Positions 1 through 47,414 of a stretch of 64,000 nucleotides of DNA are shown in pieces. Under the pieces are notes generated by a model that saw nothing but the letters and a program-made list of their open reading frames with translations, was not told the DNA's origin and made no database searches. Position numbers and translations under genes: made by a program. Numbering within the stretch: position 1 is the stretch's first letter; the number at the start of each line of letters is the position of its first letter. This DNA is from Sthenelais limicola (Eukaryota; Annelida; Polychaeta; Phyllodocida; Sigalionidae). The stretch covers positions 42,531,744 through 42,595,743 of the forward strand of contig OW804096.1 in NCBI GenBank assembly GCA_942159475.1. The letters run 5' to 3'.

Positions 1-1310
1 GATTTTTGGACTAAAAATGATCTACTAGACCATGGCCCTGTCCTTGTCTCCTCAATTACCCCTTGAGCTTCTAATTTATTGCAAACCTCGTCAAAAGCTT
101 GTGCTTTCTCCAAAGTTGTTCTGAAAGGAAGCATGTGACATGGTGTGGTGTCCGGCTTCATATGTAACGAATGCTCATATAGTTTGGTTACACCTAGCTT
201 ATTGTCCGGACCCACAAAAACATCTTTGTATTTGTCTAGAATTATGTTCAACCGCTCCCTACCTTTGTCGTCTAAGACAGATGTGGGAGAAATATTTGGT
301 GTTGAATCAATTGAGATGTCAGAGAATTCATTAATCTCGATGTCTGAATCGGCGTCAGAATCGGAAAACGACTCATCTGATTCTATGTGTCGTTCAGCAG
401 CACCGCTTGACTGAACATTATTTAGAGAATCAATAGTATATTTCAAAGAATCTGGAACTTGTGATATTTCATTTTCCTTGACCCTGGTGAAAAGCCCCAA
501 TATTTGTCCCTTATTGATTTTGTATGGACTCGTAGAAGTATTTAATAAAACTACTGGGTGCCTGTTCTTCTCACAGGGTCTCACAACGCTTCTTTGTATA
601 ATAAACGGTACGGTTACTCTTCTCTGCATATTATCTATGATACCATCCTCACAAATATCATAAATTGAGGTAATTTCACCCGTTACCGCATATTCTGAAT
701 GTGGGGGTATAATTGCCGCCCTAACAGCCCTGACCGGCATATGTTCCGGCGAAGGGTCTGTTTCAAAACTTATGTGTGCTTTGTATTTTCTAAAGAAATC
801 ACAACCGAGTATGATAGGCCTGTTTAGGTTAGGAATGACTGCAAAATGATGTATAAATTTGCTACCTTGAATATTAAATTCTAAAGTTGCCAACCTTTTG
901 ACATGTACGACCCCCCCCATCAGCCACATATATTTTCCAGGTAATATGTTTTGTTTTAACAAATTCCCTTTGTGAACATCGCACTAGTAAGCGATCGTTA
1001 ATTGCCGAAACTGAAGCTCCTGTGTCTACCAGGGCTGGTATATCTAGTTTATAACCTATAATTCTGAGACAACCATTTTCAATAATAGCAGATATGGGAA
1101 CTGTCTTACCTATCTCGCTGGTTTGTTTGAGGGTGATCGTTGCACTGTCTTCAACCTTTTTGCCGGTATTTGTAGTAAATATTTTCTCGGTGTTATTACA
1201 AATAGGCACACAATTATCATTTTCAAAATCGAAGTCCATGGAAATGTTCGTTTTACCGTCTGGTAAAGTCTCTTGCCCGACAGAGATTTGCGCACCAGGT
1301 CTAATTGGCC
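1..1310 (-). pseudogene. pol: Pol polyprotein, protease and N-terminal reverse transcriptase, broken by one frameshift
   Basis: The frame is -1 relative to gag. The aspartic protease active site VDTGASVSAIN is encoded around 1024-1050, and the second protease motif ILGCDFFRKY around 790-820. These two parts lie in different frames: the first runs into a stop at 874. The switch falls at a run of eight G on the minus strand (plus 911-918), where one base fewer would keep the frame. Beyond it the frame stays open to the window edge through an acidic serine-rich linker (about 340-410) and the RT lead-in (about 1-240). The break may be a real mutation or a homopolymer error in the assembly. All other catalytic pol domains would lie outside the window. 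Confidence 0.85.
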
Positions 1311-2498
1311 CTAATAAGACTGGTGGTTGCCGTTTCCCTGTCCTTGGGATTGTTGTCTGTATTGCAGAAATTGTTGGAATTCTGCCATTAACTGGTCGTT
1401 CATTCCTGAATTTTGCTGCTGGTTGTATTGTGGCTGTTGGTAGCCATTGTTCCAGTTGTTATTCCAACCTTGATTATTCTGCTCTCCGTTGTAGTTCTGG
1501 TTGTTATTATTCCAGTTACCTTTGCCTTTTCCCCTCCAGTTGCCACCACGGCCGCGCTTGTTACCGTTCCATCGGCCTCTTCCACGGCCTCTGCCCCGGC
1601 CGCGACCGTTGCCGCCTTGCCCTTGGTCGTTTCCCTGACCTTGGTCCATAACTTGAACCGTCTCGGTGACCGTTACCTTTGGCTCCTCTTTTTGCTTCGT
1701 CAGCACATCGATCTTCTCATGGAGAGATTTAATTTCCTCTTTGTGAGATTTAGTGAGGTCTGCACAAGTTTTGGCAATTATAGACGACAACTCTGTTGTG
1801 TCTATAGCGGGCTGCTTTCTGGATTTATCACTAGCTTCTGCCATTTTGGCAGCTTTAACAGCAGCATCATAAGTTATGGGGTTTTGAGCTAACACAATCG
1901 GAGCAAGGTTTGCACGCAAACCTTCTATTAACTTTTCAATAGCTCCATCCTCGTTGATGGCTCTAGCAGATATTATATCTCTCAGATATAATGAATAGTC
2001 CTCTACTGTTTCTGCGCTACCCTGTTTCCTCACTTGGGTTATTCGCAGATTTCTTTCGTCCGGCCTAAAGTATACTACCATAGCTTCCGATATTGCTAGA
2101 TAGTCATTCCTATCATTGGCTCCTATACGGATGTGGCGCTCATACCACTGCCTTGCTTTTCCATCCAGATATGTTGAAAAATATTGGGCTAAGGCTGGCA
2201 GATCATTATGGTAGGCTTGGGTAATATAGTGACGATATTCTTCTAGGAATTGAGTCGTAGTTACCGTCAATGTTGGTCCTTTGAACACTTCTGGCTTCCT
2301 TAAGTTAGGATCCTGGGCCCTCATAGCTACTAGGGCTTGGGCAAGTTGTTCGTTGGCCGGCTGTCGTATCGCCGCATCTATCCCTTGTTGAATTCGCAGG
2401 TTCAACTGTGGGTCTCTTTCCTCTAGATGATTCCGAAGCCGATCGTTTATAGCTTGGTCTAATACTCGTCGAGCCTCTGCTATTTCCGCCTCATTCAT
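1311..2498 (-). CDS. gag: Gag polyprotein of the LTR retrotransposon, RGG-rich, without zinc knuckle
   Basis: 395 residues, intact. Residues about 85-225 look like a retrotransposon capsid domain: GKARQWYERHI at 113-123, an FRPDERNLRITQ stretch at 144-155, a YSLYLRDII helix and an IEGLRANL helix. A probable coiled coil follows at 235-272. The tail has an arginine-glycine tract at 298-325 (alternating RG, then KRGRGGNWRGKGKGNW) and an Asn/Gln-rich end. I see no CCHC knuckle, so nucleic-acid binding probably rests on the RG tract. The ATG at 2498 lies about 130 bp inside the primer-site region, which suits a first ORF. Pol follows in the -1 frame and its open frame overlaps the end of gag. I found no clear slippery heptamer. 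Confidence 0.85.
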   Translation of the reverse strand: MNEAEIAEARRVLDQAINDRLRNHLEERDPQLNLRIQQGIDAAIRQPANEQLAQALVAMRAQDPNLRKPEVFKGPTLTVTTTQFLEEYRHYITQAYHNDLPALAQYFSTYLDGKARQWYERHIRIGANDRNDYLAISEAMVVYFRPDERNLRITQVRKQGSAETVEDYSLYLRDIISARAINEDGAIEKLIEGLRANLAPIVLAQNPITYDAAVKAAKMAEASDKSRKQPAIDTTELSSIIAKTCADLTKSHKEEIKSLHEKIDVLTKQKEEPKVTVTETVQVMDQGQGNDQGQGGNGRGRGRGRGRGRWNGNKRGRGGNWRGKGKGNWNNNNQNYNGEQNNQGWNNNWNNGYQQPQYNQQQNSGMNDQLMAEFQQFLQYRQQSQGQGNGNHQSY

Positions 2499-2666
2499 GT
2501 TGATATGATGGAATTGTAGAGCTATTTCTTCAAATTCGTCTGGTTCACGATATCGCTGAACAGGATTCTTCTTCTTATATTTTCTCTTCTTTGGAGAAAC
2601 CTTGGTGACTACCCTGTTACGTAGGGTATGTGTCGCCAGGTTTAAAGGTTTAGGTTTTCCACCATT

Positions 2667-3266
2667 TGATACAACTACTATTCTCCAAGGGATATGTGTA
2701 GATGGTAGAGCTAGCTAGAGTCCCTGAGAATGTGTATAATTAATAAGAGGTTAGGCTAAGTATAGCCTAAGATGATGTAATAAGAAGAGCAGCGGTTTGT
2801 CCTGTTTAGACATAACATTTTATTGGAAACCATGGGTTTATATATCATATTACATGTCAGTGCGCATGCGTAATTAATATCCAATCATATGCATTACATT
2901 TGCATAACCAATAGTAAACATTTATCAAGTATTTGACCACAGGGGGTCGCTTGTATAAACCAATAGGAGAAAGGAGATTATTATTTGGGTCAGCCTTCTT
3001 AAGTTAATTAGCCAATGAAATATAATTAGTGGCTGCCCAATCAGGTACTCTAGAGTTAGGTTGAACCCGTAGGAGGGTCAGGATGACCCCCTATGGAGTA
3101 TTCTAAGAACTAACTGAGGTAGACTAGACTTGCCCTAGTCACCTTACATAATTAATATAATATTCATAATTCAATGTAACCTTATATAATAATATTGGGT
3201 AATGTATATAACATATCATTAGGTGATATTACGTAATGTTATATCATGGCATTATGGATCGTGACA
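2667..3266 (-). repeat. 5' long terminal repeat (about 600 bp)
   Basis: On the minus strand this starts TGTCACGATCC and can be ended at TATCA, giving the usual TG...CA form. It contains a TATA-like box (TATATAAA, plus positions about 2836-2843) followed by AATAAA (about 2819-2824), the normal U3-R-U5 arrangement. The inner limit is uncertain. TGG occurs two bases after it (TGGTGGAAAACC), and a second primer-site candidate, TGGCGACACATA, lies nearer gag at about 2629-2640. I cannot assign the priming tRNA. Only one LTR is in the window, so the length rests on the TG/CA ends. Confidence 0.7.
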
Positions 3267-3421
3267 CTTCCTTTAATTTCTATTTTTTATTATGAAAGAC
3301 CCATCACCTTGTTAAACTGATAAGATTAGCCTTGGTATAGTCTAATAAAGCTCTACACACTTAAAGGAATGTTGATTCATCATGATGCACCGACCATGAT
3401 TTGTATCTTCCTCGCTTTCAG

Positions 3422-3519
3422 AACTTACGATAAATCCAACCATAGACATGGTATACACAACACAGCAAGGGGAGATCTATCTCAGACGCGATGGTTCCAC
3501 TGATGAGATAACCATGCAG
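3422..3519 (+). CDS. Penultimate coding exon of an unidentified host gene
   Basis: The exon is bounded by a pyrimidine-rich acceptor (ctttcag) and a CAG|gtatga donor. It is 98 bp: two bases completing a codon from upstream, then 32 open codons (LTINPTIDMVYTTQQGEIYL, then RRDGSTDEITMQ), ending in phase 0. The next exon at 4988 begins in phase 0 and continues the frame to a stop, which is the main support. Upstream exons are not visible and would lie left of the LTR retrotransposon. I do not recognise the protein. The segment is hydrophilic with no motif I can name. Confidence 0.6.
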
Positions 3520-3639
3520 GTATGAGTCATACATTCTAACAAAGTATTGTGATAGTTGTCTCAAAATCCAATACCACTGTCCCTTCTAAATGATTAAATT
3601 ATCAACTCTTTGTTTATGCTGTACGGCTTCTGGCCCGGT

Positions 3640-3740
3640 GTAACAGTTCTAAATTACCCCCCTCATCTAATATACCCCCCGGTAATTTAGACCTTAGGTT
3701 TAAATGACCCCCTCTAGGTTCAAATTACCCCCCTTTGTTT
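3640..3740. repeat. Degenerate ATTACCCCCC / TCTAGG array (intron)
   Basis: Several words of the type AAATTACCCCCC, AATATACCCCCC and GACCCCCTCTAGG alternate with CTTAGG or CTAGG words. It is the less regular relative of the array at 4060-4350 in the same intron. Confidence 0.6.
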
Positions 3741-4059
3741 CATTTATAATCTTACACCAACAATTCTAAAAGAACATATTGGGAGAGAAGGTCATATCTA
3801 ATGCTTATGGGAAATAAATTAAAGATCACTTTGAGGGTCTAATAATGAAATTTATTGTAATTCTGTATAATAATCCTTTTTTCTTTCTATTTATTTAAAC
3901 TTAAAATATCATTGTAACTCAATGACTATGGGAGCATATTGCAAATAAAAAAACAAAACAACTAAAATCTATTCAGTTCTGTCTATCAGGCCTGTACTGT
4001 ATCCAGTTTTCACTTTATTCATTATTACTTTTATTGTCATAATTAAAAGAATAAATGTT

Positions 4060-17515: not shown

Positions 17516-18216
17516 CTGAAATTAGAAAGGACCATTAGATTACGTTGGACGCCTGTTGAGATATCTCCTTTCAGGAGTAGTCCAGTTCTTATCTCAAGAC
17601 GAAATGAACTCTATAGTAAAAATGGCATTGCCTCTCCAAGGACTTGTAACGGTATAGAGGTGCTTAAAAGGCTGCTAATTAACTGGAAACTCTTTTAATC
17701 CTGGTTTTAACGGAATGCACATAATGACAGCGCCGAGAAAGATTCGGTACAAAACTTGCTATACGATAGATCCCAAGGTTTAGGCGCTTTCATCCCTTAG
17801 AATAATGTTCTAAGTGGTTCTTATCTCGCAATTTACATCCTACAATAAGCTCCCCTTAGCATTTCTGGGTCGAAAAGTTGGAAAGGCTTTGTACAAACAT
17901 GTTCCATAGGATTACATTGAATGCCATGACCAATAATCTATCGAAGTGCTTTAGATTCTCTGATATGATATGAAAGTAGAGAGATATTCTCGATGAGGAT
18001 AATGAAGAGATAATGAAGATAATTCAGAAACATATATAATGCTATAGCAGAGGGTGATAAGATGGAAATCTCCAGATATCCATCTCCATTCATCCTTCTT
18101 TAGCCACAAAAGGACATTCTTGAAATACAAATGTAGGCAATCAAAATTAAAACTTACCGCGATAAACTTAAACGTAATCGCGGTATCATACATGAACGAC
18201 TATATGAATAACTAAC
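17516..18216 (-). other. Receptor intron 4 (701 bp)
   Basis: Phase 1, donor gttagtta and acceptor tctaatttcag. No other feature seen. Confidence 0.85.
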
Positions 18217-18677
18217 CAAGAGCTGTCCTGTCTGGCCTTTCTGGCGGCAACCAGAAAACAACAAGGGATAGGCAAGCGAGAAAAACACAGGGTAGTGTCA
18301 GCATATAGGTACTGAACACCATCTTCCTCTTCATATAAATATTGAAAGTTAAAACTGCAAAGTTGGGATCCTCATCTTCGGAGGGCATGAATTGTTTAAT
18401 GGCCGTCACATTGAGTACATCCCACCCACTGGATTCCTTGTGGTCGCTCCTGAAGGTGGACAAATCTATGCCTCCAGGGAATGCCATGTTCAGATCCAAC
18501 TCCTTGGAAGGGTGAGTCCAGGAGCCGAACCACATGTGACACTGTTGCTCATCAAAGGGGAAGTTTGAGACGTCCACTGAACAGGAGCTTCTGAAGATAC
18601 AGTGCGGATACCAATTGACCATGCCTTCGTACGTGACAACAGCCAGGGCATCTCTAGCCTCTATATCGACATCTGCC
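18217..18677 (-). CDS. nAChR-like subunit, exon 4: Cys-loop, inner ligand-binding domain, TM1
   Basis: 461 bp, acceptor attcttgcag, donor CTTG|gttagtta. It encodes residues 151-303. The Cys-loop is Cys182-Cys196 with 13 residues between (CSVDVSNFPFDEQQC), containing the FPFD motif; an extra Cys176 precedes it. Loop B tryptophan is Trp203 in WFGSWTH. The loop C region (about 232-258) has no adjacent cysteine pair, so this is a non-alpha subunit by the usual criterion. TM1 is about 269-293 (MVFSTYMLTLPCVFLACLSL), with the conserved Pro. Asp299-Arg300 just before TM2 sits where cation-selective subunits have Glu-Lys. Confidence 0.95.
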
Positions 18678-19578
18678 CTGCAAGAATTAACGTCGAATAA
18701 ATAATAAATAAGTTAGCGGATGATTTGTTTATCTACTTCTATAAGATTTATTGGATGTTGCACAGACGTTTGGTTCTTGATTACCACTTATGTACTGCCA
18801 TAGGCAATGGTAATATGCATGTCAATTACCCAAGAGACTGCGACTTTGAGGATAATTTCAGAATTCAGGATTTATGGAGGATTGTTTTGCTTTTAATGTA
18901 ATGAAAGGGGGAAAGGAGTATAAAAGATGGATGTCTGTGTCCATGTGAAATGAACTTATCTGGAAAGAAGAAAGTTCAGGATTTTATCGCTTGTCAAAGT
19001 TCCTGACCAAGCCAACTATTAGATTTGCGAACAACTATTCTATAGTTATGGCTAGAGGCTAGGGGCACAATTGAGAGCACCGGAGCAGAGCCTTTTGTGC
19101 CTAATTGAAATGAAGTTTAATGTATTTGGAAAGTAGGAAGCTTTGAAATAACATCAAATGACTTGCTGAAATTAAATTGTCTTTAACACAAACGAATGCA
19201 ACTTGTAAGAGCCATTTGTAGCAAATTTATAAGCGATTCAAATGAAACTAACAAGTCGAGAATGAGATTATTCTGGTTATATAACGCAGAAGTCAGTTCT
19301 TAATGGGCAGAGCTCTTTCGTTATCCATATTCATCGCTGCTTAGATGTCGTATCCAGACGTCCCAAAAACTAAAACTTCGTAAGCAATCCTTGTTAGATA
19401 GTAACAGACAAGAGCCATTAAAAGCAAACTGTAGAATTGAAGAACAACACGCGAGCGATGATCCATTTAGAAACAAAAGAGATTACATGGGCAAGTGGTG
19501 GGACTGGTATGTTCTTTTATCAGAGAAATTATGTAGTTACAAAGTAGACATGAGGAGAAATATGATATTTATATTTAC
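18678..19578 (-). other. Receptor intron 3 (901 bp)
   Basis: Phase 2, donor gtaaatat and acceptor ttcttgcag. No other feature seen. Confidence 0.85.
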
Positions 19579-35266: not shown

Positions 35267-35939
35267 AATTCACCTTGCAATTTCGTATATGTTTCATGCA
35301 GTAAAACTGAAATGAATGCTTTCATAACTAATCTGTCTGATGTCAATTCACCTTGCAATTTTGTATGTTTCGTGCAGTAAAACTGAAATGAATGCTCTCA
35401 GTAGTAATCTGTCCAATGACAATTCACCTTGCAATTTTGTATGTGTTTCATGCAGTAAAACGGAAACGAATGCTCTCAGTAGTAATCTGTCCAATGACAA
35501 TTCACCTTGCAATTTTGTATGTGTTTCATGCAGTAAAACGGAAACGAATGCTCTCAGTAGTAATCTGTCCAATGACAATTCACCTTGCAATTTTGTATGT
35601 GTTTCATGCAGTAAAACTGAAACGAATGCTCTCAGTAGTAATCTGTCCAATGACAACGCACCTTGCAATTTTGTATGTGTTTCATGCAGTAAAACGGAAA
35701 TGAATGCTCTCAGTAGTAATCTGTCTGATGTCAATTCACCTTGCAATTTTGTATGTGTTTCATGCAGTAAAACTGAAACGAATGCTCTCAGTAGTAATCT
35801 GTCCAATGACAACGCACCTTGCAATTTTGTATGTGTTTCGTGCAGTAAAACGGAAATGAATGCTCTCAGTAGTAATCTGTCCAATGACAATTCACCTTGC
35901 AAGTTCCTATATGTTTCGTGCAGTAAAACTGAAATAATT
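35267..35939 (+). repeat. 78-bp minisatellite, about nine copies, open as a 26-residue repeat
   Basis: Units start at 35267, 35345, 35421, 35499, 35577, 35655, 35733, 35811 and 35889, each with AATTCACCTTGCAATTT or AACGCACCTTGCAATTT. The second copy lacks two bases, which breaks the plus frame near 35370. From there a frame stays open to 35981. The unit encodes PCNFVCVSCSKTETNAL and SSNLSNDNS, with three cysteines. The minus strand is also open for 184 codons, and one further plus frame for 103, because the period is a multiple of three and has few stop words. Differences between copies are both silent (TCA/TCG, ACT/ACG) and replacing (Thr/Met, Ser/Ala, Asn-Asp/Asp-Val). Translation is unproven. 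Confidence 0.85.
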
Positions 35940-38900
35940 TTAGCGTTCTTTTTCCGATGTTGGGACTATTTCCATACCTAAATCGGCCATACTTATTGCC
36001 ATCTTTCTTTGAAAATATCTTGGAATACTGGCGGTGCTCTATAGAACTAACACTTGCGGTGGCAGGGTAGGCTGTGACCATAGTAGCTTTAGAATATAGT
36101 GTGTAGTTCTAAAGCACCCTGCCCATAGACACTTTGAACCATTAGTTACTCTTCCATCCTTAGAGTTTAGCATTGAGATAGGTAGCAACATCATCGTATA
36201 CCTTATCTTGTGAAAATGATTCATGTCCATATAAATTAAGTAAAGAAATGGGTTTATAGAGGGATACCGCCGGATATTTCCCCAGAAAAGAAGATAAATG
36301 ACAATATACAAATTTGGGTGTATTTCTCAGTTTGTTCTTTCAAACAGTCCTTAAAGCAATTCCATTTTTAGTCCAAACAACATTGTTTTTAAAATTATTT
36401 CTTTATGTGTTTACAGTATCAATTAAACTAGAACGGAGACAAGGGTCGTGAGAAACCTGGGGGCGGGGGGTCTATAAGATGGTTTGTACTACTCTAGTAG
36501 AATAGAAAGACGGATGATCACGCCACCAATCACTCATTATTTTTCTATTTTTTCTAGATCTCTGTAAGAGTCTTACTTATGTATACGGTAAATGACAAAA
36601 ACTATGTTACTATCCTTGTGTTAAAATTAGTCAGTAGATAGATACTGAAGCCTTTTAATTGTCTGATTGTATGCACGGTCTATCTATGCAACTTATATTG
36701 GTGAAGATTAGATAGAAATCATGAAAACAATAATAAATATAACTGTATTTTTTCATCTTATAACTGAGGCATTATCAAATCTCATACTTATGGAAAATAA
36801 AAAGTCATATAAAAAATCAATCTGTATTATCAGCTAATATATTATATACGTTAAAAAAGCTATTCTGTCCCTGGAATTACATAACTTCCTGGGATAATTA
36901 TCATCAACTCCTTTAAAGCTGCAATTGTGGTGCCACGGAAGGGGCCCAATTTCCATATACTACTCACCTCTCTAGCTTAACCTCTATCTTATATATTTAT
37001 GTCCACTCTGAGAACTTTTGTAATGCGTGCGCATCCTGCATGCGCAAGACAAATGTTATATTATGTTGTATGTTATTCCACTAGGTGGGGCTACTTTCTA
37101 CTGCATATCCTATATACTTGAATACACCTTCTTTCTATGTCTTACCGTTTTATCTTGTGTCCCAGTGTATCACAGCTGACCGACTGTATAACTGCTAACT
37201 AGAGGGAGATGGGGGTGGGGCCCCCGTGACGACTCCTGAACCAGCTAAGGGGGGCGGGGGTACAACCACCTGCCGCACGCACCTCTGAAGATGACCACAC
37301 GAACTGGAACTTTTTAGCAAACCGGGAAAATACGGAGAAGAAAGTTGAAATCCGTCTTCCCCGCCGGAGCGGGGGAAATTGGCTCCCCCTTTTGATTTGA
37401 TTTTGGAAATATTTCATTCAGGTCAAATAGACATTTTTATACATAAAGTATAAGTATTCTCAGAATCGCCTGATTTTATACTATACATTTAAATCAAGAA
37501 CAACAATACATTTAATCAAATATTTACGTACTATGAGGTTCATCAAGTGCGAATCAATAATCATACATATAAACTAAAAATGATTACAGACCATTATACC
37601 GACATACTCAGTATATAGCTTGTCCTTTAAAATTTTCCTCTACTCGCGCCGTGCTCTCACACGCTAACCATTAATAATACAAAGTATATTCAAGAGAAAT
37701 TTCACATTATTTATTCAGACATTTGTCCAAAAAAGGAAAATATACATGAACACACACGACAAGAAAGTAAATCTCGTCAGTCTAGCTGCAGACCCCGAAA
37801 CCAACTAAGTTGAAGTTGAAGTCCTTAAACAGATTGTAAATATCAGACTTGTGTGCTCGTTCTGTGTATTCCCCTATTCTCCTCCTCCTCCCGATCCTAT
37901 CATCTTTCATATCATCTTTAATATCCATGTAAATCCCGCCCCCCCCTCAAACCATTTGAGTTGGGTCAGCATAATATTACGATATCAAAGCCAGCAAAGC
38001 ATTGCTATCAATACATTACTTTTGACTTGAGCTTACTTACTGAACTCTCACTTTACTGAAACACATATATATTCCCAGACATATGTGATCTGCCAGACAA
38101 ATATTTATTGCGACTGTGCTAGGCAAAAGATATAATATATTATATATACGAGAGGGGCGAAGACTTGTATTGCCTGGTATACGTTTCTGTCTCCATCCTG
38201 ACAGATGAGACTAGAGTCAATATAAATGTGTCTTCAGAAGAGTCATACCTTTGGAAGACTGTCACGTGCGTGGCTAGAAAACATTCCTCAGTGTACGAGA
38301 TTCATGACAACTGTGGTTAATCGTCAAAATGATTAATCAAAAAGCTTGACGATAAATCAAAACAGAAAAGGGCTTAGCTAGGTAATCAGAGAGATGTCCT
38401 AGAGCTACATGGATAATTAGTTGATGCAGTTAGCAGTTTATTAATAGCAGTTCATGTTATATGTTATTATTATCATTGTTAGTAGTAAACCTTTATTATT
38501 ACACATTATGCTTACAATAGCACTGTTCCCGGTCGAGTGGACAAAGACGTATTTACTACACGCCGAAATGTGTATCACCCACCTTTTGTATGGGCGGGAT
38601 GGTAATAGTGGCCATGCATTTCTTTGCAGGAGAATCAACGCGTGGAATCTGACAGTTCTTTACTTCCGGTTTATTTCATAAAAAATGGCCCGATCGTTTT
38701 TACTTATTACTCAGCTTCCACGGACTACATTTTTTAAATGAGTATAGATTCTGAAAGGGCGGAGTTGAATCTATGAGTTTTTTTTTAATTGTGTTAAAAT
38801 TAATTGCGAACTTATGACTTATGAGGTTTGTTTTCCACCGTATGTTCTCGGACTACTAAACAACTAAAATCATTTATATATTATATATAATGTTGTTGTG

Positions 38901-42822: not shown

Positions 42823-43192
42823 TTGGTACAGTGCTTCCCCAATGTCATTTCCACAAGGGACCTTACCTTACGTATTATAGCCAGGACACGTTCTAGGAAA
42901 AAACAACATGACATTGATGAACGAGCGGATGGACATGATTCATCATCAATTCCCATCACCCCCATTGACGTGAAGGGCTTCAACCAAGACCTTCAAGGCC
43001 TACCTGTCGTGGGGCATTTTCTGTTGGGCACCCATAATTGTTGCGATGATTTAAGATGTTCCCCTGTCCCCCATGAACTCGATATGGCGGCAGTGCACTA
43101 GCAAGCGAACGGATCGAGCTCCCGACTTTATTTGGATTATTAGTAGCAGATCGTGTCAAATTCACTATTTAACGTACCCAACATATACAGGA

Positions 43193-44962
43193 ATGAGCCA
43201 AACACATTCAAGGAATCTAAGATCTAGCATTGACTTTAGTTCAAAGAACTTATTTAGCAAATCCGATATTGATAGTATGGCCCAACTGGGTCGTACGCAA
43301 ATACCCACAGGAATCAGTATGGACCAGTGCCAGCAGTATGTGATACTCCCAAGAGAATATTCCAATACACAAATGGGAATTAATATGAACTCTCAACCCA
43401 ATGTACAATTAGCCCCAGCAAACACCCAACAATCGATGATTGCAACAAATATTGGAGATAGATCTGCGATTCCATCGAACACCGAAGGACAAGTCTATGT
43501 TCCCCCTCAATCCGCAATGGCGAGCTATAGGCAGGTAGCTGTCCCACAGCATCAAGAAACACAAGGAAATCAGATAAGTCAATACTCGCATTCTCAATAT
43601 CCTGATATTCCCCATGATTTTATGGTAAAGTTTATTGCCCGAGAAAAAAAGATCGATGAACTATTATCTGGTATGGCAAGAATTCAGGGCTCAATTGAAA
43701 ACTATGGTAATATCGCTCTCACAAACCAATCCGACATTGGCACGCTGAACAGAAATACGCAAGGTTTGCAAGAAAGTGTAGGCCAGTTAAACGACAATAT
43801 GAAGGGTGTCGTAGCAAACCAGGTGAAATTAGACCAATCTAACTCTGACATTAACAAAAGCATGCAAAATCTTCAAGCTACAATCACCGATCTATCCCTC
43901 AAAATTGAATTAAATTCCAATACCCTGGCCGCAATCAATAATAGTACGAATATTCCCCAAGTAAACATACAGCAAAACACAACACAAGCAGCCACGCCCA
44001 CCCCTACAGTCAACACGGCAATAAGGGAAAATCCCAGGGAAAAAAATGTAATTCTAAAGGGAGTTGAAGAAAACGACGGCGAAAACTTGGAAAATATTGT
44101 CAAAGATTTGCTTGGACATATTGATTTCAAGTCAACCTTCTCAAACGTAGAAAGGCTAGGGATTAAGCGCGAAAGCCCCGATAATCCATACCACCGCCCC
44201 ATAAAAGTCACACTCCTTTCAGTCCGCAACAAAATAGAGCTATTTAGAGGCATGAACAAACACAAACAGAAGCCTCAATTAGCTGGGATATGGGCCCAGG
44301 GCGACAACACTGAGGAGGAACAGTTACATATGGGTGAGGCGAGATCTATAGCCTTTGCAGCCAGAGCCTTACATGGACTTGAATCCAGACCTAAAGGCAT
44401 TGATGTGTACATTGCAGGTGTAACTTATACCAGAGCTGACTTCGATAAATTGCCTAAGGGATTAGACAAGACTACTGTCTCCACCTTCTCAACACCTGAC
44501 GGGACAGCCTTTCAAGGGCATATGAGCCCTCTGTCCAACCTATTTAGCTGCCCAGTAGAATTAGACGGAATTGAGGCCCAGTCTGTAGAGCAATTATATC
44601 ATGTAAAAAAAGCAGTCGAATGCAACGCGACCCCAGAGCTCATAGAGAGACTGAAATCTATTAGGAATCCCTATACTGTAAAAAGAGTAGCCAAACAGAT
44701 CAAAACGAACCAGGATTGGGATAGAAAATCGAACGATATACTCTATGAGTGTATGAAGGGAAAATTTGCACAAAATCCCACACTGAAAGATTTTCTACTG
44801 CGAGACGACAAAAAGTACTTTTATGAAGCGACCCACGACCCCATATACGGCTGCGGGAGATACCTATCCGACTGCACGCTACTGACACATGACCAAGTCG
44901 ACGCAAACTGTAATCTCTGTGGACAGTTTCTTGAAAGACTAAAGAGAGAGCTTGTCAGCTGA
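43193..44962 (+). CDS. LINE ORF1 protein with C-terminal NADAR (YbiA-like) domain
   Basis: The open frame begins at 43073; I prefer the ATG at 43193 (MSQTHSRNL) because the first 40 codons look like leader. Numbering from 43073: a Gln/Asn/Ser-rich N-terminus up to 185; coiled coil about 185-290; an RRM-like ORF1 core about 323-400 (EKNVILKGVEEN ... VERLGIKR ... RPIKVTLLSVRNKIELFRG); an ORF1 C-terminal domain about 401-466 ending YTRADFDKLPKGL, typical of invertebrate LINE ORF1. A NADAR domain follows at about 474-597: GHMSPLSNLFSCPVELDG, VEQLYHVKKA with Glu506, Gln507 and Lys512/513, Trp549, KGKFAQNPTLKDFLL, and YEATHDPIYGCG in place of the usual WGxG. NADAR proteins cleave N-glycosidic bonds, including those linking ADP-ribose to guanine bases and in riboflavin intermediates. 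A role here in removing ADP-ribose from element nucleic acid is inference. Confidence 0.88.
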   Translation: MSQTHSRNLRSSIDFSSKNLFSKSDIDSMAQLGRTQIPTGISMDQCQQYVILPREYSNTQMGINMNSQPNVQLAPANTQQSMIATNIGDRSAIPSNTEGQVYVPPQSAMASYRQVAVPQHQETQGNQISQYSHSQYPDIPHDFMVKFIAREKKIDELLSGMARIQGSIENYGNIALTNQSDIGTLNRNTQGLQESVGQLNDNMKGVVANQVKLDQSNSDINKSMQNLQATITDLSLKIELNSNTLAAINNSTNIPQVNIQQNTTQAATPTPTVNTAIRENPREKNVILKGVEENDGENLENIVKDLLGHIDFKSTFSNVERLGIKRESPDNPYHRPIKVTLLSVRNKIELFRGMNKHKQKPQLAGIWAQGDNTEEEQLHMGEARSIAFAARALHGLESRPKGIDVYIAGVTYTRADFDKLPKGLDKTTVSTFSTPDGTAFQGHMSPLSNLFSCPVELDGIEAQSVEQLYHVKKAVECNATPELIERLKSIRNPYTVKRVAKQIKTNQDWDRKSNDILYECMKGKFAQNPTLKDFLLRDDKKYFYEATHDPIYGCGRYLSDCTLLTHDQVDANCNLCGQFLERLKRELVS

Positions 44963-44987
44963 ACATTTGATCCCTCCTAAAAGATAA

Positions 44988-45941
44988 GTGTCACTACATA
45001 TTATATTACATCTATCTTATCCGACTTTCCCCCTCCTTCTCAACTCCTTCCAACTCAATGATAAGAATAGAGCCAGAGCTGCGGCCATAAAATCAAAGAC
45101 CAAAGCTGACTGGGATGAAGCTAAGAGACTTAGAAAAATTGCAAACCTAAACATGAAACACGCAAAGAGAGATTTTATTATATCGGAATTAAATAACCAC
45201 AACCACGATCAAAAGAAGTTTTGGGAAACCATAAATATTATTACCCCTAGTAAGAGGAAAACTGGCATTATCAGCCTAGTGAACTCCGATGATAACATAA
45301 TACCACCAAATGAATTACCCCACTATCTGAATCATTACTTTGTTAATATAGCTAAAGACCTCACCAAAAACCAAAACCCACACTGGAGGCCAAACACCCC
45401 TCCCCTTCTCAGCCAAATTGATACTGTGCAGACTAACACCCAAGAAGTTGAGAAACTAGTAAGAAAAATTGATACCAATAAATCATCATCTATTAAACAC
45501 ATGCCAAATAAGGTTCTAAAATGTGCACTACTCACACTTGTTCGAGAATTTACCCACTGCCTAAATCTATCTTTCTCCACCTCTACTATACCTGAATCAT
45601 GGAAAACAGCTGAAATCATCCCTCTATTTAAAGGAGGAGATCCCAGCAGAGTAAACAACTATCGCCCAATATCCCTTCTCCCCACCCCTAGTAAAATAAT
45701 GGAAAGAATCATCCACAATAGAATAGCAAATTACGCTACCCCAAATAGAAACACTAGAAATTTCGATGCGCCCAGGCTGAAAGTACCTCGTGTTAAAACT
45801 AACCTTGCCCAGAACTCAGTAACCATCAAAACCGCAAATGCTTGGAATGAGTTAACTGCTAGACAGAGAAACATTGGTACCATGGAGGCTTTTAAGTCAA
45901 ATCAAAAAATATGGCTAAATACCCTATATATACAATTGTAA
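44988..45941 (+). pseudogene. LINE ORF2 remnant lacking endonuclease and RT catalytic core, still in frame
   Basis: 317 codons. Residues 22-85 match the linker between endonuclease and RT (AKRLRKIANLNMKHAKRDFI, QKKFWETINIITPS). Residues 90-246 are the RT entry region with DTNKSSSIKHMPNKVLK and PESWKTAEIIPLFKGGDPSR, then NNYRPISLLPTPSKIMERII. At about residue 250 (near 45735) the sequence jumps to the ORF2 C-terminus (RNTRNFDAPRLKVPRVKTNL, NAWNELTARQRN, MEAFKSNQKIWL). The A-to-E RT motifs with the YADD box are therefore absent, and no endonuclease precedes it. Both deletions keep the frame. The product could at most be a truncated RT-like peptide. Confidence 0.85.
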
Positions 45942-46232
45942 TCCTACACAAACCACAGCTATCCTTTTCGCCCAACTATTCCACCAGCCGCCCATAGACC
46001 TCAGTGCTGTTTGAGTTGAACACATGCTCGCTCTGACGTCCGCGCTTTTGTCTATATCATACTGAATTGATAATTGAAAACTTGGAGCCCTTGTTACTCC
46101 TTTAAACGATCCTGACTATCCGACCAGCTAATTTAAACTACAACTGGATATTTAGAACTCAGATAACTGTCTTCTCTTGTTCTATACCTCTCCAATCTTT
46201 CATATTGACTTTTAATAGAAAAAAAAACACAG

Positions 46233-46352
46233 CTAACACTCCATCACTAATGATCAGAGTGGCAAAGCTAATTTATCTTATTTATCTGCTAAAAACATAC
46301 ATTAATTTCAATGACCACTAACACTCCATCGTTAATGATCTGAGTGGCAAAG
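46233..46352 (+). repeat. Duplicated motif in LINE 3' UTR
   Basis: CTAACACTCCATCACTAATG, then ATCAGAGTGGCAAAG (46233-46267) recurs with three changes at 46318-46352. CACTC and GAGTG can pair within each copy, so each may form a short stem, possibly part of the RT recognition region. Confidence 0.7.
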
Positions 46353-46444
46353 TGCAAACCTTCATATCAAAATCAAAACTATGTATATACTGTAAAAAAA
46401 GCTCCATCTATGTACACCTTCCCTGCTCAGTCTCTGTATATAAG

Positions 46445-46520
46445 ACTGGGGCAGGCGAAAAACCCCGTTAGGGGACCTTCGACTCCCAGTATAAATAAAA
46501 TCTTTAAAAAAAAAAAAAAA
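46445..46520 (+). terminator. LINE 3' end: stem-loop, poly(A) signal and A15 tail
   Basis: ACTGGG (46445-46450) pairs with CCCAGT (46485-46490). Inside, CCCC-GTTA-GGGG forms a second stem. AATAAA is at 46494-46499 and 15 A follow at 46506-46520. Terminal hairpins of this kind are the usual template-recognition element of LINE reverse transcriptases. Confidence 0.75.
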
Positions 46521-46996
46521 CATGGTTGTGTGCGAGTAAATGACCTTATAAATGGCCTGACTAATCCGGTTTATGAAGTTGAAATAAGAGGCCGAGGTAT
46601 AATGTCGTGTTGATATACAAATTGGTAGTAAATAAAGAAGTAAGAATACAGAAACAATATCATTACAGCTGTGCAAAGAGTCTCTCTGGTGTTAAAACAT
46701 TCTAAACACAATGTGTGTAAAGCACGTAAGAACACAATGTGCATATATTATGTCATAATATAATTATATAGTACGTAAGAAAAGAGGAGCTGCCGCTGCG
46801 TACACCTATACGAGATTGTGAGTAGTATAGGTAAAGTGGACTTTGAGTAAGGTAAAACTGTTTATGATGTGCGTGTGGTCATGGTAACTACTTTGGTTAT
46901 CCTTCTCTATTTTCTTATCAAATAAAATAATTATTTGCCTGAGCTATATTAAATCGAAGAAAGACTTTCATGACCTTGACCTTTGTAGGGACACCA

Positions 46997-47414
46997 GACC
47001 TATAGGCCCCGGGACCAATAGGCCCCGGGACCTATGGGCCCAGCTCTGGACTTATAGGCCCCAAGGCCCGCTCGCGTTGGACTTATAGGCCCCGGGATTT
47101 ATAGGCCCAGAAGAATACTAAACCATACCAAAAATAACCCTAAACCTAACCCTAAATTGGTTGTCCTAAGTCAGTAAAGGTAGTAGTGGACTGTCCCTAG
47201 TAAAAACTGACTAATAAAATAATTATTTGACTAAAAAAAAATATATCACTAAGTTTTGAAGCGGGGCCTATAAGTCCAAAACCCCTGTAACGGTCGGGGC
47301 CTATAAGTCCCGAGCTGGGCCCATACGTCCAAACGGCTGGGCCTACCGGGGCCCATACGTCCAATGCACGGGGCCCATACGTCTGGGCCCATAAGTCCCG
47401 GGGCCTATACGTCC
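46997..47414. repeat. Opposed arrays of GGACTTATAGGCCCC / GGGGCCTATAAGTCC
   Basis: Left array (46997-47111) repeats words such as GACTTATAGGCCCCGGGA and ACCTATAGGCCCCGGGACC. Right array (47262-47414) repeats the reverse complement (GGGGCCTATAAGTCC, GGGCCCATACGTCC). They flank a 150-bp AT-rich spacer with AACCCTAAACCTAACCCTAA, so the locus is a large imperfect inverted repeat built from short units. Confidence 0.8.

Follow-up and report, generated by a model that had tools for sequence, protein, structure and literature searches.

Why should the RNA-binding protein of a retrotransposon end in a domain known from ADP-ribose-processing enzymes? This question is raised by a long interspersed nuclear element (LINE) in a stretch of 64,000 nucleotides of the Sthenelais limicola genome (contig OW804096.1, positions 42,531,744 to 42,595,743 of the forward strand; hereafter the window), in which an initial annotation made from the letters alone had noted a NADAR/YbiA-like domain in the frame of a LINE ORF1 protein, the product of the first open reading frame (ORF). 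Judged from profile matches and a modelled fold, this protein consists of a predicted coiled coil and a core resembling the RNA recognition motif and C-terminal domain (RRM/CTD) of other ORF1 proteins, and continues in frame into a C-terminal NADAR domain of the YbiA type. The fusion as such is already known, because in the Pacific oyster (Crassostrea gigas) several families of Tx1 LINEs are described as having an ORF1 that likewise appears to hold a YbiA-family NADAR, for which a role in RNA processing was guessed (PMC12477816). What we add is evidence on selection, on the active site and on the multi-ORF structure of the elements.

The domain assignment was borne out by a profile search, in which the window ORF1 matched PF08719 with 60.6 bits at a curated cut-off of 35.1, and by the predicted fold of the domain, which is YbiA-like and in a structure search by VIA-align resembled the NADAR protein of P. 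nicotianae (8bau) and YbiA of E. coli (2b3w). Apart from the predicted fold, these two proteins have in common with the window domain the residues Glu43, Lys50, Trp89, Glu125 and Asp130 (P. nicotianae numbering, as in the following); Trp549, which the initial annotation had singled out, is the equivalent of Trp89. Unlike the ORF1 fusion, both are single-domain chains of 168-189 amino acids. TIGR02464, the model of the riboflavin-intermediate N-glycosidase, was the best NCBIfam match but remained below its equivalog cut-off of 73.7 bits (63.2 bits with the full ORF1 and 67 with the isolated domain). A Glu in the last strand is described as defining YbiA-type NADARs (PMC11543638), while an Asp there marks the DarT1-associated antitoxins. 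At this position, that of Glu125, the window domain has Glu585 and neither Asp nor His, which places it with the YbiA type and not with the antitoxins. A chance similarity or a broken frame was rejected on account of the PF08719 match, the same fusion in relatives within the genome and the purifying selection reported below.

To compare active sites, we aligned the NADAR domains scoring above 100 bits, removed six duplicate places and thinned the set at 90% identity, which left 30 rows (without the stand-alone domain of locus L063, and including some that do not come from a full-length ORF1; loci of this genome are given as L numbers). The clades among them are 23-29% identical to the window domain. 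Glu43, Lys75 and Trp89 are unchanged in all 30 rows, Glu125 is Glu in 29 and Asp130 is Asp in 27, the exceptions being a broken copy (L014) and two domains with Asn (L053 and L013b). The Lys50 position holds 20 Lys and 10 Arg, and that of Trp133 holds 18 Trp, 8 Tyr and 3 Phe. The P. nicotianae protein is described as holding the distal ribose by Glu43 and Glu125, and as handling the pyrophosphate by Lys75, Arg79, Lys50, Trp89, Arg93, Trp133 and Asp130 (PMC11543638). In the E. coli C7 NADAR the equivalent of Lys50 is reported as essential with an Arg substitute active in vitro, which agrees with the natural exchange of Lys and Arg in our rows; the equivalent of Glu125, an Asp, is required, and at the Glu43 equivalent Gln inactivates the enzyme while Ala changes its activity in vitro very little (PMC11543638). 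Four of the eight contact columns are among the 15 invariant columns of 162 (hypergeometric p 0.003, to be taken as a guide only, as columns were treated as exchangeable and L063 was included). The window domain itself departs from 8bau at Arg79 (Lys541), Arg93 (Ser553) and Trp133 (Tyr592). As far as the alignment can tell, the catalytic side is thus conserved, whereas the side facing pyrophosphate and adenine is so in part only.

The suggestion that the fusion may be widespread held within this genome (1.13 Gb, 161 contigs) and agrees with the statement of PMC12477816 on oyster LINEs. PF08719 gave at least 150 matches over the cut-off (150 of 150 scored, from 5561 candidates) and the window NADAR domain as query also at least 150 (150 of 150 scored, from 4987), two sets that may overlap. 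The ORF1 core without the NADAR domain gave at least 140 (140 of 140 scored, from 1051 candidates). ORF1 reads into NADAR in 62 of the 70 ORF1 rows listed; five of the other eight have NADAR in an adjoining row and three have none. All six divergent core matches that were fetched carry NADAR beside the core. Across the 65 loci (64 fetched plus the window, some of them the same place) 62 have a NADAR match, a biased count as most were fetched for matching. The retention of the domain, with the greater part of its active site, in many relatives suggests that the elements need NADAR, perhaps against a host defence.

A few loci depart from this arrangement. L063 holds a stand-alone NADAR frame of 162 amino acids (345-830, minus strand; Pfam E 3.2e-31), which is possibly a host gene or part of another element; contig C1 has 162-amino-acid frames at two further places. 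The same locus encodes an ORF1-like protein that continues into the beginning of a divergent NADAR (1638-2774, plus strand) without Pfam match, which in one tree stood beside database record P0001 on 37% of the columns. In L056 (1794-2780, plus strand) a NADAR domain (Pfam E 2.4e-21) follows Pro/Ser-rich repeats in a different kind of ORF, and in L017/L040 (C4:136818600-136826500) ORF1 lies in a single open frame of more than 1300 amino acids with upstream, perhaps protease/pol-like sequence.

Selection was estimated as dN/dS per ORF1 segment by the method of Nei and Gojobori (NG86). Pairs with undefined or saturated NADAR dS were left out, among them the window copy against its 77%-identical family (NADAR dS undefined or 3.05-3.69). 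Six divergent pairs, which fall in clades A, B and C of the NADAR trees described below, gave a NADAR ratio of 0.04 (L003/L045, L056/L007, L060/L007, L054/L057 and L050/L061) or 0.05 (L036/L033) at NADAR dS of 0.93-1.49, where values near 1 or above are uncertain with NG86. L056/L007 and L060/L007 have one member in common, and L004/L045 and L035/L033 duplicate two of the pairs with near copies. In the same six pairs the ratio was 0.02-0.08 for the RRM/CTD part (computable in five, one dS reaching 4.2), 0.09-0.26 for the N-terminal part (four) and 0.15-0.50 for the tail (five). These estimates indicate that between families the NADAR domain is under purifying selection similar to that on the RRM/CTD part.

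Phylogenetic trees of NADAR domains were inferred with 155 and 58 rows and have a weak backbone. The database rows (P numbers) are the best 120 of 1409 matches, mostly without known taxon. The ORF1 NADARs of the genome form clades A (that of the window), B, C and D plus single rows, and fall outside the database clade that contains E. coli YbiA (support 100/99, 58-row tree). In approximately unbiased (AU) tests, a single clade of the 20 genome rows was not rejected (p-AU 0.092), nor was one that also included P0002, P0006, P0007 and P0014 (p-AU 0.113). A single origin of all ORF1-NADAR fusions was rejected when P0001, picked after the tree had been viewed, was added (p-AU 0.010). The trees thus suggest at least two captures of NADAR by ORF1s. 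The reverse transcriptases (RTs) encoded downstream of each ORF1 group into the same clades A-D (12 rows; four changes, the minimum possible being four), so NADAR and RT travelled together within these clades. By eye, P0001, P0002, P0006, P0014 and P0015 show an ORF1-CTD-like lead before NADAR; they document the fusion for other database records and not for other named species. The RTs of relatives of the window element carry the motif GVPQGS..P, which we take to be CR1/L2/jockey-like and not L1/Tx1-like, so these elements may fall outside the Tx1 clade. The oyster elements, compared here by description only, are in contrast classed as Tx1 (PMC12477816).

The window copy, whose features are collected in Table 1, was aligned with 11 related loci, eight of them 93-99.8% and three 77% identical. 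Similarity begins at 43084 in seven of them and at 43080 in two, and sets in further on in the remaining two; L022 (93% identical) matches through the A-run to about 46521 (46523 in the L022 match). The ATG at 43073 therefore lies outside the element, and Met41 is the first Met of its own frame. Compared with L039 (99.7% identical), the copy jumps at 45039/45050 and is interrupted again after 45734, to be taken up at 45738 within the C-terminal tail of ORF2. These breaks have removed the endonuclease, the larger part of the RT and the ORF that lies between ORF1 and ORF2. The deletion leaves ORF1 intact, and nearly the same ORF1 protein is encoded at three other places (100% identity after rounding, from amino acid 3-5 on). 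Since most of ORF2 is missing, the copy cannot be autonomous; together with the near-identical ORF1 copies this indicates, on sequence comparison, a recent, non-autonomous insertion. Inspection by eye revealed no target-site duplication. Across the family the elements have the features of non-long-terminal-repeat (non-LTR) retrotransposons of the apurinic/apyrimidinic endonuclease (APE) type, L041 and L044 carrying both PF03372 and PF00078, while the window copy itself is without endonuclease. L039 carries an ORF2 frame of 725 amino acids that runs off the fetched stretch. The CTD part of the window ORF1 weakly resembles human LINE-1 ORF1p.

Table 1 Features of the window LINE copy and SGNH/GDSL-like ORFs of its relatives. 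Positions are those of the window unless preceded by a locus.
Feature	Position	Strand	Remark
LINE copy	43084..46521	+	internally deleted, A-run at 3' end; start and end from related-locus comparison
ORF1	43193..44962	+	from first in-element Met (Met41 of 629-aa frame 43073-44962)
Coiled-coil-like region	43643..44060	+	~aa 191-330; weak matches only to coiled-coil families
RRM/CTD-like core	44006..44476	+	~aa 312-468
NADAR domain	44525..44953	+	aa 485-627
Glu506	44588..44590	+	Glu43 equivalent (distal ribose)
Lys513	44609..44611	+	Lys50 equivalent (pyrophosphate and adenine)
Trp549	44717..44719	+	Trp89 equivalent
Glu585	44825..44827	+	Glu125 equivalent (YbiA-family Glu at catalytic centre)
Asp589	44837..44839	+	Asp130 equivalent
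ORF2 remnant	45050..45941	+	piece before/at RT start joined to C-terminal tail; RVT_1 0.0079
SGNH/GDSL-like ORF	L039:3269-3919	-	
SGNH/GDSL-like ORF	L041:3762-4481		
SGNH/GDSL-like ORF	L005:2492-3199		
SGNH/GDSL-like ORF	L008:2631-3281		

Several relatives contain a further, separate ORF of about 215-240 amino acids (293 in L069) downstream of ORF1, namely L039-L043 of the window clade, L005, L006, L008, L052 and L069. It precedes ORF2 wherever the order is visible (all but L069, L006 and L052), and the corresponding stretch is deleted in the window copy. Nine aligned rows share SGNH-like blocks (a DSR block, a Gly block, G[IV]N and DG.H); the DSR block with the Ser is absent from the L040 frame, and the catalytic Asn is replaced by Cys in L005, L008 and L069. 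Lipase_GDSL_2 matched four of six members below the cut-off (best E 0.006), and a match to 4c1b was not significant (E 0.74). Between ORF1 and ORF2 of L044 no ORF of this kind of at least 150 amino acids was found. L042 has two open tandem copies at one place (2252-2950 and 3248-3916, minus strand). An enzymatic accessory domain in a LINE is likewise known from zebrafish ZfL2-1, where an SGNH esterase sits in ORF1 (PMC3905857), whereas the relatives of the window element encode their SGNH-like protein in an ORF of its own, and NADAR is a different enzyme.

Elsewhere in the window, LTR-element gag-like and protease-like frames occur at 874-2714 (minus strand; Pfam matches below cut-off), and at 18212-18712 (minus strand; Neur_chan_LBD, E 1e-22) a frame that looks like an exon for a neurotransmitter-gated ion channel indicates a host gene. 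A repetitive region with both strands open lies at 35328-35981, and at 46995-47414 repeats of 16-38 nt, both direct and inverted, form an array around GGGGCCTATAAGTCC.

What, then, might the domain do for the element? The reading that we prefer, and to which we give about an even chance, is that NADAR is a working N-glycosidic hydrolase in the ribonucleoprotein (RNP) particle of the element. ORF1p is thought to coat element RNA. Tethered to it through ORF1p, the domain would act on this RNA, on nascent cDNA or on target DNA, most likely on base-linked ADP-ribose, in the first place that on guanine, and would thereby reverse host nucleic-acid ADP-ribosylation during retrotransposition. The tested NADARs are reported to hydrolyse guanine-ADP-ribose (PMC11543638, PMC11125620). 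ADP-ribosylating activity on guanine-N2 of DNA is described from six edible clams (PMC11209040); the modification therefore exists in some invertebrates, a parallel that is no more than suggestive for this element. The mollusc hemocyanin profile PF14830 gave no match in the genome, and its controls were silent as well. Reversal of host ADP-ribosylation, as already proposed in the initial annotation, fits the conserved active site and the purifying selection, but two ligand contacts of 8bau are lost.

Several points weigh against a hydrolase of this kind. None of the 30 domains has Arg at the Arg79 position (12 have Lys) and only one at that of Arg93 (11 have Lys), the Tyr84 position falls into a gap in 29, and Asp86 is conserved in only three, so that ligand binding may differ from that of 8bau. 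L059 has Lys in place of Glu125, and the invariance of Glu43 is weaker support for catalysis because Ala at its C7 equivalent has so little effect. Near copies (dS <0.2) had NADAR ratios of 0.08-0.23, and L059/L062 reached 1.24 on a dS of 0.01, although raised ratios are as expected after insertion. The pierisin/CARP-1-type transferase profile PF22596 matched none of 16 scored genome candidates, an uninformative result as control genomes were silent too. No activity data or functional study of a LINE NADAR was found in the literature searched, subscription papers being outside its scope.

The altered contacts lend themselves to another explanation, a lesser but real possibility, in which the domain is catalytic on small molecules such as free or cyclic ADP-ribose signalling derivatives or NAD-derived RNA ends and not on modified bases. 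The distal-ribose residues are kept while 8bau contacts on the pyrophosphate and adenine side are lost in part, and phage NADARs have been proposed to act mainly on small ADP-ribose derivatives (PMC9503650). However, the domain follows an ORF1-like core in the full-length frames read, which places it on nucleic acid, and all tested E. coli host and phage NADARs are reported to have hydrolysed guanosine-ADP-ribose (PMC11125620). We consider it unlikely that NADAR is a binding module without turnover, steering the RNP by contacts to RNA ends, ADP-ribosylated proteins or cap complexes. The nematode protein SNA-3, with three NADAR domains of unknown activity, does act in an RNA complex with CBC-ARS2, yet its function is impaired by changing homologues of the YbiA catalytic residues, where the authors caution that folding may be affected (PMC9303266); Glu43, Lys75, Trp89, Glu125 and Asp130 are moreover kept in 27-30 of the 30 rows. 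An N-glycosidase of riboflavin intermediates as in bacterial and plant YbiA, carried as a metabolic passenger, is very improbable even with TIGR02464 as best NCBIfam match, since the score lies below the cut-off. Animals are not known to make riboflavin, and such a role is at odds with the fusion to an RNA-packaging protein. That the domain was captured by chance and is now decaying, functionless, might be read from the non-autonomous window copy and the relaxed ratios in near copies, but is barely credible given dN/dS of 0.04-0.05 between families, near the RRM/CTD values.

Returning to the hydrolase acting on nucleic acid, it may be speculated that an arms race lies behind it, in which the host ADP-ribosylates bases of retrotransposon RNA or cDNA and the elements respond with an ORF1 eraser that is under core-like selection, was captured at least twice and is joined in several families by a second hydrolase ORF; we put this forward tentatively, as a serious possibility. 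NADAR and Macro domains of invertebrate RNA viruses, compared by description only, likewise give a selfish RNA-based element an ADP-ribose-removing domain, for which counter-defence was proposed, though in a polyprotein and not in a LINE ORF1 (PMC9503650). A Gypsy retrotransposon of Ectocarpus also has a conserved NADAR, the blastp matches of which are described as almost exclusively bacterial (PMC12477816).

In 2013 the esterase ORF1ps were called unique among ORF1ps in having an enzymatic function (PMC3905857), and the role of NADAR in animals is named as an open question (PMC11125620). The domain reported here would be a second kind of ORF1 enzyme domain, with catalytic residues and purifying selection over deep divergence within one genome. 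It allows a direct assay of whether a LINE needs the removal of ADP-ribose from nucleic acid and, if this were true, ADP-ribosylation of bases would become a candidate anti-transposon defence in animals.
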